In this document: positions 32,562 through 48,764 of the stretch, one piece after another
Position numbering within the stretch: the stretch's first letter is position 1
How the letters are laid out: each line of letters starts with the position of its first letter
Source: Exiguobacterium aurantiacum
GTDB taxonomy: Bacteria; Bacillota; Bacilli; Exiguobacteriales; Exiguobacteriaceae
Length of the DNA: 64,000 bases
Reading direction: 5' to 3'
Assembly (NCBI RefSeq): GCF_024362205.1
Contig: NZ_CP101462.1
Coordinates: 2,198,501 to 2,262,500 of the forward strand
Notes under the pieces: model-generated
What the model saw: only the letters and a program-made list of their open reading frames with translations
Told to the model about the DNA's origin: nothing
Database searches by the model: none
Position numbers and translations under genes: made by a program

Positions 32562-34073
32562 TCAGCTCGCGCTTTTGCGACGCTTCCACATGACCAATCC
32601 AGTCAAGAAAATCGGGATGGCGACCACTAGTAGACCAATCGTCCACATGTTTACTTCCGATTCTTCGACGATGTAGGCGTTCGCGCTTTCTCCCGCGAGC
32701 TTGATGGTGAACGTGCCACGGCTGTCCGTGACAAGTTGTGAGAACAAGAGACCACGAAGGCGTGTGTCTTCTCCGACTTCGCTTACCTCGAATTCAATCT
32801 CTCTGTCCTCGGCGTTCATATTGATGGCGTACAACGCGACATCGTCGCCGTCGCGACGTTCGAACACGGCCATGCCATCTCTCGAGGCAATCATCCGTTG
32901 TTCGCCGGTCGCAAACACCGGGTATTCGGCGCGCATCCGGTTCATCGTCGTGACGTATTCATGAAGTTCTTCATTTCCAGGGAAATCGGTCATGACCCGG
33001 TTCGCCGGATCGGCCCCACCTGATTGGGCGTTCTCCGTCCCTTGGAACACGATCGGCATCCCCGGTGACGCATACAGGGCGAATAGTCCGAGACGCAAGC
33101 GACGCTCGGCCGACTCGGCACCCCCTAGTTCCGCGACGTGCATGAATCGTTCGACGTCGTGGTTATCAAGGAAAGTCGCCATTTGGTTCGGATCGTCAAA
33201 AAATGTCTCGGCGTAGCTAGCGGCCACATCGATTTCATCGACGTTCGCCGTCTTTTGCGTCATCGTCTTCGAGACGCGGTCATAAAACGTGAAGTTGGTG
33301 ATGCTGTTGAAACCTAGGTCGTCATACTCGGCGACGTACTGCGGGTCCGGGTCGAACACTTCGGCCAAGAGGTAAAAGTCAGGATCGACTTCACGGACCG
33401 CTTTGACAAAGTCTTCCCAAAACGGCTTGTCAACGTGTCGTACCGTATCGAGGCGATAGCCATCGATCCCGGTCTCTTCGATCCAATACGTGGCCGCCTC
33501 GAGCAAGTAGTCTTTCACTTCCGGGTCTTCGGTTTTAAAGTCTGGCAAGTCGAACAACCAGTGCGTCTCGACTTGTTCTTGATCGTTCCAAAGCACGATC
33601 GGTAACTCGTCATGGAACCAATCCGGTCGTTCTTCGACCCACGGATGGTTCGGCCCGACGTGGTTGACGACAAAGTCGAGGATGACTTTCATATCCCGTT
33701 TATGCGCCTCATCGACGAGTTCTTGTAAATCTTCTTTCGTCCCGAATTGGGGATCGATGTTGTAAAAATCTTTGATCCAATAGCCATGGTAACCGTCCGG
33801 CATGTTTTCAAACACCGGTGTCAACCAGACGGACGTGAATCCGAGCGACTCGATGTAATCGAGTTTTTCAATCACGCCTCGGATATCGCCCCCGTGAAAG
33901 GCTTTCGGGTCATTTTTATCGACCTGGTCATTGTTATCGGGATTCCCGTCAACGAACCGGTCGACCATGATAAAGTACATGCGTTCTTGTTCCCATGATG
34001 CTGCTTCTTTCGCTCCGACGACTGTTGGAAACAAAAGAAGCGACAGAAGAACGAGCACGACGCCTCGCCTCAT
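32562..34073 (-). CDS. secreted, membrane-anchored GH13 alpha-amylase
   Basis: 503 aa. Signal peptide (residues 1-21, cut near VVGA-KEA), GH13 barrel with DFVVNHVG, catalytic GYRLDTVRH, LLAEVFD and FLDNHDVERF, a C-terminal beta domain, then a single span (about 478-497) ending in the positive WKRRKSAS. It would degrade maltodextrin at the cell surface for the ABC importer. Start site AAGGGGGAAGC. No CBM34 domain, unlike the cytosolic paralogue at 38 kb. Confidence 0.88.
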   Translation of the reverse strand: MRRGVVLVLLSLLLFPTVVGAKEAASWEQERMYFIMVDRFVDGNPDNNDQVDKNDPKAFHGGDIRGVIEKLDYIESLGFTSVWLTPVFENMPDGYHGYWIKDFYNIDPQFGTKEDLQELVDEAHKRDMKVILDFVVNHVGPNHPWVEERPDWFHDELPIVLWNDQEQVETHWLFDLPDFKTEDPEVKDYLLEAATYWIEETGIDGYRLDTVRHVDKPFWEDFVKAVREVDPDFYLLAEVFDPDPQYVAEYDDLGFNSITNFTFYDRVSKTMTQKTANVDEIDVAASYAETFFDDPNQMATFLDNHDVERFMHVAELGGAESAERRLRLGLFALYASPGMPIVFQGTENAQSGGADPANRVMTDFPGNEELHEYVTTMNRMRAEYPVFATGEQRMIASRDGMAVFERRDGDDVALYAINMNAEDREIEFEVSEVGEDTRLRGLLFSQLVTDSRGTFTIKLAGESANAYIVEESEVNMWTIGLLVVAIPIFLTGLVMWKRRKSAS

Positions 34074-34096
34074 ATCGCTTCCCCCTTAAGTGAGTA

Positions 34097-46026: not shown

Positions 46027-47493
46027 ATGAAACATATCGCTATTATCGGGGCCGGGCTCGGCGGCTTGAGCGCCGCCGTCACTCTAGCCGCCCGCGGTTA
46101 CGACGTGACCGTCATTGAAAAGAATGAACATGTCGGCGGAAAGCTCATGCCGATTATCACCGATGGACACCGTTTCGATTTCGGACCGAATACGATCACG
46201 ATGCCGGACGTGTTCCGCTCCGTCATCCGCAACAGCGGCGCCAACCCGGATGACTATTTCGAGCTCGTCAAGCTTGACTCGCACACGGTCAATCACTTCT
46301 CTGACGGTTCGACGTTCACATTCCATTCAGACCGCGAGAAAATGGAAGCCGAGGTACGCCGTCTGACCGGCGACAAGGCTGATAAAAATCAATTGACCGA
46401 TTACTTGGACGAGGCGGAGAAACTGTTCGAGATTGCCAACAATCGCTTCTTCACACGGATGGATTCAAAAATCGATACCGGGCTTTGGACCGATATGATG
46501 AAAGTACATCCGCTGAAAAGCTTGCATGCGCTCCATAAGAAATATTTTAAAGACCCACGTATCATTCAGGCGCTCGACCGCTATGCGACGTATATCGGCA
46601 GCAGCCCGTATGTCACACCGGGCACGTTCGCATTGATCTCGCACCTAGAACTGAATGACGGCGTCTATTTTGCCAAAGGTGGAAATTGGACGATCGCGAA
46701 AGGGTTCGCCAAACGGGCGAGCGAACTCGGAGTCGAATTCCGTCTCGGCCATGAAGTCACGAAAATCGAAGTGACGAACGGGAAAGCGCACGCGGTCGTC
46801 ATCGACCATGAAGAGGTCATGTCTTGTGATGCCGTCTTGTTGAACGGAGAATTGCTCACGCAATATCCACGGCTCGTCGACGCTTCCGACCGTCCCTCGT
46901 TCCCGGTACCGACGCGCGATACGATCGAACCGTCCGTGTCCGCTTTCGTCATCATGGTCGGCTTGAACAAGCGATTGAATCTCGCCCATCACAACGTCTA
47001 TTTCTCAGACGACTACGAAGCAGAGTTCCGGGCGCTGTTCGACGAAGAACGGTATGCGGATGAGCCGACGATTTATATCTCGAACTCGGCCCATACGGAC
47101 CCATCGATGGGAGAAGCTGGCGACAACTTGTTCATCCTCGTCAACGCTCCGGCCCATATGACCGACATCGATGCCGAGACGTATGAACATTTGATTCGCC
47201 GGCGTCTTCGGAAATTCGGTGTCGATTGGGAAGACCGCGACGTCGTCTTCCACCGTCGTGTCACCCCGCTCGACTTGACGCGTGATTTTTACGCGTATTA
47301 CGGGGCGCTCTACGGGACATCGGCCAACTCGAAAAAAGGAGCGTTCTTCCGCCCTTCCGCCCGCTCGGAAGATGTGTCGAATATCTGGTTCGCCGGCGGT
47401 TCGACCCACCCTGGCGGCGGTAGCCCGATGGTGACGCTTTCAGGACAATTTGCGGCCCGATCGATGTTAGAGGACATACCTCTGACAATTTGA
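46027..47493 (+). CDS. crtP: CrtP-like carotenoid oxidase (phytoene desaturase family)
   Basis: 488 aa from MKHIAIIGAGLGGLSAA, with TAGGAGGC upstream. FAD dinucleotide-binding motif at residues 6-30, GGKLMPIITDGHRFDFGPN, YIGSSPYVTPGTFALISH and C-terminal FAGGSTHPGGGSPMVTLSGQ. The ending and the ALYGTSANSKKGAFFRP block are closest to what I recall of the 4,4'-diaponeurosporene oxidase CrtP (also called CrtNb) rather than to CrtN. Last gene of the rightward carotenoid set. Confidence 0.75.
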   Translation: MKHIAIIGAGLGGLSAAVTLAARGYDVTVIEKNEHVGGKLMPIITDGHRFDFGPNTITMPDVFRSVIRNSGANPDDYFELVKLDSHTVNHFSDGSTFTFHSDREKMEAEVRRLTGDKADKNQLTDYLDEAEKLFEIANNRFFTRMDSKIDTGLWTDMMKVHPLKSLHALHKKYFKDPRIIQALDRYATYIGSSPYVTPGTFALISHLELNDGVYFAKGGNWTIAKGFAKRASELGVEFRLGHEVTKIEVTNGKAHAVVIDHEEVMSCDAVLLNGELLTQYPRLVDASDRPSFPVPTRDTIEPSVSAFVIMVGLNKRLNLAHHNVYFSDDYEAEFRALFDEERYADEPTIYISNSAHTDPSMGEAGDNLFILVNAPAHMTDIDAETYEHLIRRRLRKFGVDWEDRDVVFHRRVTPLDLTRDFYAYYGALYGTSANSKKGAFFRPSARSEDVSNIWFAGGSTHPGGGSPMVTLSGQFAARSMLEDIPLTI

Positions 47494-47520
47494 ACATTTT
47501 GTGAACAGAAGATTCGACAC

Positions 47521-47549
47521 TTGTCGACAAGGGATAGACATGATAACAT
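47521..47549 (+). promoter_or_regulatory. possible promoter of the C-rich-loop RNA
   Basis: TTGTCG (47521-47526), 17 bp, TAACAT (47544-47549): a moderate SigA-type match that would start transcription near 47556. Confidence 0.35.
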
Positions 47550-47555
47550 CATATT

Positions 47556-47882
47556 CGAGTTCAAGCAGTTTTGTAACGTTTGTTACACCTGTAGCGATCG
47601 AATGGCTTCCCCGAGCCTATCGCGTTTTGAACTTGTCACACCCGAGAAAAAAGTGATGAGCGAGTTTCCCCACTCGTATCCCGCGGCTGGAACAGCATGC
47701 ATTATGATGTTCCCCCTTAGTCCATCAAGCATCCTGCTTCAGCGAAGATGCCCCATCGTTTCATTCCCCATGAGACGAGGCACATCTTTAGGGTTCATCA
47801 CGTCCGATTCGTTCGTTTCCCCGATGAACGAATCACACAACGCTTACACCACTTTTGGTCCCCCGCCAAAAGTGGTTTTTTT
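47556..47882 (+). ncRNA. candidate regulatory RNA with multiple UCCCC/UUCCCC hairpin loops
   Basis: No credible gene fills this stretch, but it folds into consecutive hairpins whose loops are C-rich. Stem GCGAT..GGCT/AGCC..ATCGC, loop UCCCCG (47594-47623). CGAGU/ACUCG, loop UUCCCC (47661-47676). GGAACA/UGUUCC followed by CCC (47689-47716). AAGAUG/CAUCUU (47745-47788) enclosing a nine-pair stem with loop UCCCC (47756-47778). A perfect nine-pair GAUUCGUUC/GAACGAAUC stem with GUUUCCCCGAU loop (47806-47834). The final hairpin is a terminator with loop UCCCCCG. C-rich loops of this type in LhrC, RsaE/RoxS and related RNAs pair with Shine-Dalgarno sequences. The 5' end is uncertain. Confidence 0.65.
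47849..47882 (+). terminator. rho-independent terminator of the C-rich-loop RNA
   Basis: Perfect ten-pair CCACTTTTGG/CCAAAAGTGG stem, loop TCCCCCG, seven T. It lies about 355 nt beyond the crtP-like stop, too far to be simply that gene's terminator. The T run exists only in the plus direction. Confidence 0.9.
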
Positions 47883-47887
47883 ATGCG

Positions 47888-47920
47888 CAAAAAAAGGCAG
47901 CCGTCCCGTGACGGCTGCCT
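47888..47920 (-). terminator. rho-independent terminator of crtM
   Basis: Minus-strand AGGCAGCCGT/ACGGCTGCCT, six-base loop, seven T. Confidence 0.9.
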
Positions 47921-47924
47921 AATC

Positions 47925-48764
47925 TTATAGTTTGGCTAACAGCTTCCCTTTTTGAATCGTCGAGACAAACGCCCGTTTCGTGAAGACGTCGTGTCCGTTC
48001 TGCCGGGCCGCGTCCAAGATGCCTTCATAGAGCAATCCCGCCGCACTGACCGGCTTCCGGCTCGTCGCGGGGTACAAGTGATGTGTCTCTCGGGCCCGGA
48101 CATACAGAAGTTCGGCCCGGCGCGCCATCGTCTCCCAGACGGCAATGAACGCCGGGGTCACTTGCCGCGCGAACAGTGATTCTTCCGAGACACCGAACTC
48201 CGTCAGTAACGACTGCGGCACATAAATCCGGTCGCGGTCGAGATCTTCCCCGACGTCACGCAAGATGTTCGTCAGTTGCATCGCGATGCCTAAGTCGATG
48301 GCGCCTTGTTTCAACTGCTGTCGCCCGGTCGCATCCACGTCCGGTGCGAGGATCGGCAACAGCATCAAGCCGACGGTGCTGGCCGCATAATAACTATACT
48401 GCTCCGTCTCCTCGAGCGTGGCATAACGTGTCTTATGTAAGTCCCATTTCATGCCTTCGGCCAATTCGAAGAACGGTTCGACATCCATGTCGTATCGTCC
48501 CCAGACGTCACGTAACGCCACCCAGAGCGCATCCGACAACTGTTCACCTGCCAAGAAGCGGTCGAACTCGTCCAAAAAAACCGTCAAGCTCTCTTCAGGA
48601 TGATCTGATTCATCGACCGCGTCGTCGAGCGTCCGGCAAAACGTATAGACCGCGGCCACGGCCTGACGGTCTGGTTTGGAGAGCAAGGAAAAGGCCCGAT
48701 AAAACGTGAGCGAGCCTTTTTTCATTACGTCTTCACAGTGACGATACGCTTCTTGTGTCGTCAT
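47925..48764 (-). CDS. crtM: dehydrosqualene (diapophytoene) synthase
   Basis: Joins two farnesyl diphosphates head to head as the first step of C30 carotenoids. 279 aa with both aspartate-rich motifs: TLDDAVDESD and ILRDVGEDLDRDRIYVP, plus AVYTFCRTLDD. Starts 32 nt inside the end of the preceding desaturase gene, so it is translated by coupling; GGGGGC lies upstream of the ATG. Confidence 0.92.
   Translation of the reverse strand: MTTQEAYRHCEDVMKKGSLTFYRAFSLLSKPDRQAVAAVYTFCRTLDDAVDESDHPEESLTVFLDEFDRFLAGEQLSDALWVALRDVWGRYDMDVEPFFELAEGMKWDLHKTRYATLEETEQYSYYAASTVGLMLLPILAPDVDATGRQQLKQGAIDLGIAMQLTNILRDVGEDLDRDRIYVPQSLLTEFGVSEESLFARQVTPAFIAVWETMARRAELLYVRARETHHLYPATSRKPVSAAGLLYEGILDAARQNGHDVFTKRAFVSTIQKGKLLAKL

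Follow-up and report, generated by a model that had tools for sequence, protein, structure and literature searches.

What does the gap between two convergent carotenoid genes of Exiguobacterium aurantiacum encode, given that no gene lies in it and that its plus strand carries one C-rich hairpin after another? In the window (the whole stretch of 64,000 nucleotides analysed here), a flavin amine oxidoreductase gene of carotenoid type, read in the same direction as the hairpins, ends at 47493; facing it, on the minus strand at 47925-48764, is a squalene/phytoene synthase gene. The initial annotation took the interval between these convergent genes to be gene-free. The element of interest, here called the 47556 RNA, is predicted to run from 47556 to 47882 on the plus strand (∼327 nt). 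A second strong terminator, on the minus strand at 47895-47920, lies directly after that of the 47556 RNA and serves the convergent synthase gene. We consider it probable that the locus is the gene of a trans-acting small RNA of the C-loop kind, with its own promoter and terminator, which would pair with Shine-Dalgarno (SD) sequences and whose promoter is probably switched together with that of a RoxS-like RNA of the same genome.

The plus strand of 47556-47882 folds at -113.2 kcal/mol, with a z-score of -8.6 against shuffles. It contains seven runs of four or more C (47609-47612, 47668-47671, 47712-47716, 47751-47754, 47766-47769, 47819-47822 and 47860-47864) and no run of four or more G; all of the C runs listed in the initial annotation are present where it had placed them. 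Of 300 dinucleotide shuffles, two contained as many such runs (mean 2.7). The trinucleotide CCC occurs in six of the seven predicted hairpin loops, a number found in 0/300 shuffles (mean 1.3, maximum 5), and the comparison with shuffled controls proposed as a check of the fold thus came out in its favour for both stability and loop content.

The consensus structure of 103 pairs opens with a branched 5′ domain (H1-H5, 47556-47635), of which H5 (47604-47617) presents a CCCC loop at 47609-47612 that is the same in the sister genus. A central multibranch domain closed by H6 (47653-47801) follows, with H7 (47660-47677, loop UUCCCC), H10 (47705-47727, loop region GUUCCCCCUUAG) and H12 (47758-47776, loop UCCCC, or UCCCU in one genome). 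H13 (47806-47834) bears CCCC at 47819-47822, and H14 (47848-47882) is an intrinsic terminator with a CCCCC loop and a T run. The H10 loop region is the longest C-bearing stretch retained in both genera, the bases following it being CUUAGUCC in one genus and CUUAGAUC in the other; the loops in general vary in their flanking letters. The earlier picture of repeated C4-C5 loops stands for five of the runs, which lie in the plain hairpin loops of H5, H7, H12, H13 and the terminator. The two further C runs that it listed can be placed more closely: the run at 47712-47716 belongs to the larger loop of H10, with its first C paired, and that at 47751-47754 is internal and half paired.

A coding origin was considered, as a frame of 133 codons spans the 47556 RNA, and was rejected because 16 of 18 relatives carry gaps of one or two bases relative to the window within the RNA. 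The strand can be read from the pairing itself. Among the 19 aligned sequences of the genus, Watson-Crick pairs alternate with G-U at 18 positions of the structure and with A-C at 2, which favours the plus strand.

By blastn the 47556 RNA is present at 85-100% identity in all 19 genomes of the genus, counting that of the window, and in 0/24 genomes outside the family. By the same search it is single-copy in the window's genome, where the covariance model also has one match. The oxidoreductase gene ends just upstream and the synthase gene follows in 19/19; one genome (G002) has ∼1.1 kb of extra DNA between the RNA terminator and the synthase gene, which the other 18 lack. Over the 19 aligned sequences, 99.5% of cells in the consensus structure are paired, compared with 98.2% in shuffles, and sliding the partners lowers pairing to 33-39%. 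Nine pairs have changed on both sides (three in the H12 stem and two in that of H13), against 4.4 in shuffles that ignore sequence relatedness and 0/500 of which reached as high a number. The C runs are nearly fixed, with 28/30 columns invariant, compared with 167/203 paired columns outside the runs and 55/94 other unpaired columns.

The same RNA can be followed into the sister genus. Two weak blastn matches there were discarded as chance-like, one being a 21-nt terminator tail and the other 37 nt at 84% identity away from the locus. A covariance model built on the central domain, searched at E values up to 1, has matches in 17/19 sister-genus genomes (6e-9 to 0.56); most of these are weak when taken alone, and the match adjoins the synthase gene in the 16 genomes where that gene was located. 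An RNA at the same locus is present in all 18 sister-genus genomes read, two of them without a model match, while the 19th (G061), outside the 18 read, has a weak model match only. With the 19 genomes of the genus, 37 of the 38 family genomes are therefore confirmed. Searched with a degenerate pattern, the H10 hairpin turned up in 25 records, all labelled Exiguobacterium.

Across 15 of the 18 sister-genus sequences, 16 of 82 predicted pairs show two-sided changes; with its ACCCA loop unchanged, the H7 stem, for example, passes from CAAG/CUUG to UGGG/CCCA, and the H7 loop of that genus is in general ACCCA or CCCCA on a covarying stem. Seven CCC loops are predicted in 17/18 of these RNAs and six in the remaining one (L111), with one or more further loops lacking CCC in 5/18. 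C4+ runs number six or seven in each of the 18 and G4+ runs are absent, and the four whose folds were compared with shuffles gave z-scores of -4.9 to -6.4. The genera differ in the 5′ domain, where a loop that lacks C in the window's genus corresponds, in the sister genus, to a hairpin whose loop bears GACCC. The contention of the initial annotation that stems vary while the loop motif repeats, to be checked by covariation across Exiguobacterium, is thus sustained by compensatory changes at nine pairs in the genus and 16 in the sister genus, with the C runs nearly invariant.

The 47556 RNA matches no Rfam family at gathering cut-offs, which were applied across the 64-kb window, in agreement with its earlier description as an undescribed RNA. 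At E values up to 10, the interval 47480-47900 gave no match to RF01820 (RoxS/RsaE) and four matches to other families, the best at E 1.4. The RF01820 model has sub-threshold matches in 4/38 family genomes, all away from the 47556 RNA locus, and its gathering cut-off is exceeded in 0/38. It is a strict test, because the RoxS-like RNA of this genus also falls below the cut-off and would consequently be missed by Rfam. With one of the sub-threshold matches as query, blastn recovered this RoxS-like RNA in 19/19 genomes of the genus (L257-L275). In the window's genome it lies at G000:C1:1991357-1991566 and is ∼129 nt long. In six genomes, among them the window's and G003, its neighbours are an oligoendopeptidase-like and a YjbH-like gene, which we take from their sequences to be pepF and yjbH; the yjbH-pepF interval is the neighbourhood of roxS in Bacillus subtilis. 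The genes that mark a RoxS/RsaE locus thus flank a separate RNA and not the 47556 RNA, which shares with that family the possession of several unpaired C-rich regions.

The two RNAs also have an upstream element in common, a result that the initial annotation did not foresee, as it did not foresee the likely metabolic targets described below. At 47491-47507, on the plus strand, a direct repeat TGAACA-N5-TGAACA with core TGAACATTTTGTGAAC starts at the stop codon of the oxidoreductase gene and spans -65 to -49 from the predicted start; we regard it as a putative response-regulator box of ResD type. The core is identical in 19/19 genomes of the genus, 64-65 nt before the first helix, and its sister-genus form TGAACGTTATGTGA is found in 17/18, with one mismatch in L102. 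The putative promoter, read by eye, is TTGTCG - 17 nt - TAACAT with an extended TG (47521-47549), the -10 being TAATAT in most relatives and the sister-genus promoter TTGTAC - 17 nt - TACGAT. Transcription from it would begin at ∼47556, coinciding with the start of the first helix. A promoter scan differed from this reading, placing TCGACA-17-CATCAT three bases downstream.

The box pattern TGAACNNTNTGTGA has four sites in the window's genome and none for the reversed control. Two of the four precede the RoxS-like RNA and the 47556 RNA, a third stands 46 nt ahead of a lipoprotein-like gene, and the last lies inside a predicted frame of 518 codons. In a set of six genomes the pattern has 25 sites, several within frames, against two when reversed. 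The spacing was compared for both RNAs: the -35 of the 47556 RNA stands 30 nt after the box in 19/19 genomes of the genus, a distance given for TTGTCG and for TTGTAC, and in the RoxS-like RNA the box, as TGAACATTATGTGA or TGAACAATATGTGA, is separated by 31 nt from a TTGTCA -35, again in 19/19. A search for the TGAACA repeat allowing one mismatch was uninformative (32 sites against 18 reversed). An initial reading of the upstream repeats as a Pho box was dropped once the same kind of box was met before the RoxS-like RNA. In one sister-genus genome (G033), a box of the TGAAC-N4-TGTGA type, together with extra TGTGA/TCACA sites, precedes a gene resembling two others that match cytochrome oxidase subunit II (L192 and L223); the gene beside it is presumably Crp/Fnr-like, and the box pattern also precedes a gene of this genome that we take to be CoA-disulfide-reductase-like. 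In B. subtilis, according to the accessible text of PMC4409812, a conserved site near -65 of roxS led to the recognition of control by ResD. A regulator of ResD/SrrA type might likewise act on the 47556 RNA through its box.

A palindrome, TCGACACTTGTCGA, lies at 47514-47527, where it overlaps the -35 element, and might act as an operator. It is invariant in 19/19 genomes of the genus and not retained in the sister genus. Allowing one mismatch, TCGACANNTGTCGA occurs at 25 places, two of them perfect; 15 of the 25 were mapped, and no regulon is proposed because 13 imperfect sites among these lie inside open frames. The form TCGACA-N2-TGTCGA, overlapping the -35, is perfect at just one other site in the genome (L052), and the gene that follows is presumably UDP-glucose pyrophosphorylase-like.

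On the reading that we prefer, the hairpins of the 47556 RNA would hold out their C-rich loops as seeds, and these would pair with G-rich SD sequences and block translation or alter mRNA stability, as is documented for RoxS/RsaE, LhrC and RNAIII. The most specific predictions come from H10, the complement of whose loop GUUCCCCCUUAG is TAAGGGGGAA. The pattern TAAGGGGGAA-N(1-9)-ATG has 14 sites in the window's genome, compared with three for the reversed pattern. One of the 14 is the antisense strand of the 47556 RNA itself, which leaves 13 start-proximal genes: sucC, sucD, etfB, a FadE acyl-CoA dehydrogenase, proline dehydrogenase, rocA, rocD, Nfu_N, an amylase-like gene and four others, these names being labels, several of which score below NCBIfam cut-offs, with six of the proteins cut at 334 residues. 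The amylase-like gene lies in the window, the site with its SD TAAGGGGGAA being at 34071-34088 on the minus strand, and a relative in G034 shares this motif.

Seven of the 13 genes fall within the TCA cycle, fatty-acid oxidation with ETF, or arginine and proline catabolism, compared with 1 of 29 control genes with another strong SD, WAAGGAGGAA, the 29 having been scanned with Pfam and the 13 mainly with NCBIfam. The one catabolic control gene encodes a 2-oxo acid dehydrogenase E1, and glycolytic genes, of which there are two, fall outside the count. Fisher's test, applied post hoc, gives p 0.0004, or 0.0012 when sucC and sucD, which probably share an operon, are counted once. We treat this enrichment as a lead, since the category was set after the gene list had been seen. 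The likely targets would thus be catabolic genes (sucCD, etfB, fadE, proline dehydrogenase, rocA and rocD), each of them, and repression as the outcome, being predicted from complementarity. In sucC, the string GGACTAAGGGGGAA is perfectly complementary to H10 over 14 nt and recurs in the sucC of both other genomes of the genus that were read; just upstream, TAAAGGGG is complementary to the RoxS-like RNA over 8 nt. In three sister-genus genomes the catabolic share of scanned motif genes is 3/10, 1/14 and 2/15, mostly through different genes, with etfA in two genomes and sucC in none. According to the accessible text of PMC8216469, SucC, SucD, EtfA and etfB belong to the RoxS regulon.

Duplex estimates call for care in assigning these genes to one RNA or the other. 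The stronger energies of the 13 leaders partly reflect the way in which these were picked, and any C-rich RNA will match G-rich SD sequences, which counts against the target reading. The RoxS-like RNA scores at least as well as the 47556 RNA on 5 of the 13 leaders, so some of the candidate targets may be those of RoxS; on 30 control leaders the mean estimate was -19.2 kcal/mol for the RoxS-like RNA compared with -15.8 kcal/mol for the 47556 RNA. One response regulator, a protein of ResD/SrrA type, probably switches both promoters, and both RNAs would then rise jointly on a redox or respiratory signal. A bolder form of this account, in which nearly every hairpin is an SD-pairing seed and the RNA is a hub holding several mRNAs at once, in tandem with RoxS and under one regulator, we regard as possible but rather doubtful. 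On sucC this would place the RNAs next to each other, RoxS at TAAAGGGG and the 47556 RNA at GGACTAAGGGGGAA.

Other explanations of the locus must be weighed against this one. The promoter box and its spacing, the C-rich loops common to both RNAs, and the resemblance of the sister-genus H13 loop region ACUCCCCGG to the RoxS terminator loop region CUCCCCGG would all be accounted for if the 47556 RNA were a divergent RoxS/RsaE duplicate with extra hairpins, and so a member of that family and not an analogue. The two differ in length (327 against ∼129 nt), the RoxS-like RNA has a gene of its own elsewhere in the genome, and the 47556 RNA matches RF01820 neither at the gathering cut-off nor up to E 10; we judge such an origin unlikely. 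It is slightly less probable again, in our estimate, that the partner of the loops is a protein or some other RNA, so that the molecule would be a sponge or scaffold and would not pair with SD sequences. Protein sponges such as CsrB are indeed built from short loops repeated on variable stems. Against this, the loops here are unlike one another in their flanking letters, and for 10 of the 13 leaders the best pairing is through H10 or within a perfect match of 10-14 nt, as SD pairing would predict, although the sites were picked for H10. In addition, the Firmicute C-loop small RNAs whose action is known pair with SD sequences, as far as the accessible parts of the literature describe them.

The remaining alternatives concern which molecule is made at all. 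Beginning ∼60 nt past the upstream stop codon and read in the same direction, the 47556 RNA might be a 3′ untranslated tail or processing product of the carotenoid-oxidase-type mRNA whose role is purely local, but promoter-like elements conserved in both genera separate it from that stop codon, and the upstream box also precedes an unlinked small RNA, so this explanation is very improbable. We give next to no credence to the idea that the minus strand is the RNA, a CsrB-like sponge offering GGGGA loops to CsrA. The reverse complement does carry GGGGA in loops and folds with a z-score of -4.65, and CsrA is present in the genome; the predominance of G-U over A-C alternation on the plus strand, the terminator and the direction of the putative promoter largely refute this reading, which we have set aside.

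Among known RNAs, CsrB and RsmZ resemble the 47556 RNA in repeating a loop motif on variable stems. Their loops carry GGA for CsrA, whereas the 47556 RNA shows CCCC loops on the favoured strand. RNAIII of Staphylococcus aureus, which also encodes a peptide (delta-haemolysin) and belongs to agr, is likewise a long, multi-hairpin RNA with several C-rich loops, but has these in three hairpins, whereas the 47556 RNA is flanked by carotenoid-type genes and Rfam-negative. We take it that LhrC and RNAIII both have Rfam families, neither of which was matched. LhrC of Listeria shares redundant C sites in loops, the terminator loop among them, but LhrC1-5 are five copies with three sites each, whereas the 47556 RNA is one copy with six to seven. 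RoxS/RsaE of B. subtilis and S. aureus comes closest, with SD-directed unpaired C-rich stretches, an upstream site near -65 and an overlap with the candidate targets sucCD and etf; it differs in having four C-rich regions in ∼110-130 nt, compared with six to seven loops in ∼330 nt at another locus.

The accessible texts of the primary papers give RoxS four C-rich regions, with SD pairing that blocks translation (PMC4409812), LhrC three UCCC sites including the terminator loop, under two-component system control (PMC4132741), and RNAIII C-rich loops in hairpins 7, 13 and 14 that bind SD sequences (PMC2837412). On these counts the 47556 RNA has the most C loops of the four, and the suggestion of the initial annotation that its seed loops outnumber those of comparable RNAs holds within a comparison with those three. 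On present evidence it is probably a variant of the C-loop small RNAs; it fails the tests of Rfam score and locus for RoxS, of copy number for LhrC and of loop motif on the favoured strand for CsrB. A literature search, which covered few subscription journals and some sources only in part, found no account of the 47556 RNA for Exiguobacterium small RNAs and no paper on Exiguobacterium and RoxS together; one Exiguobacterium paper counts predicted small RNAs and, in its accessible part, does not describe this one.

The 47556 RNA is thus a genus-wide element without an Rfam match that carries more C-rich loops than the three well-studied C-loop RNAs compared here. Its natural alignment, in which stems change while loops stay fixed, makes it a clean test object, and lets one ask why a single molecule keeps six or seven near-identical seeds, be it for several targets, for dosage or for redundancy. 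If our inference of common control holds, the 47556 RNA and the RoxS-like RNA, joined by one upstream box, would form a natural two-RNA redox circuit in Exiguobacterium.
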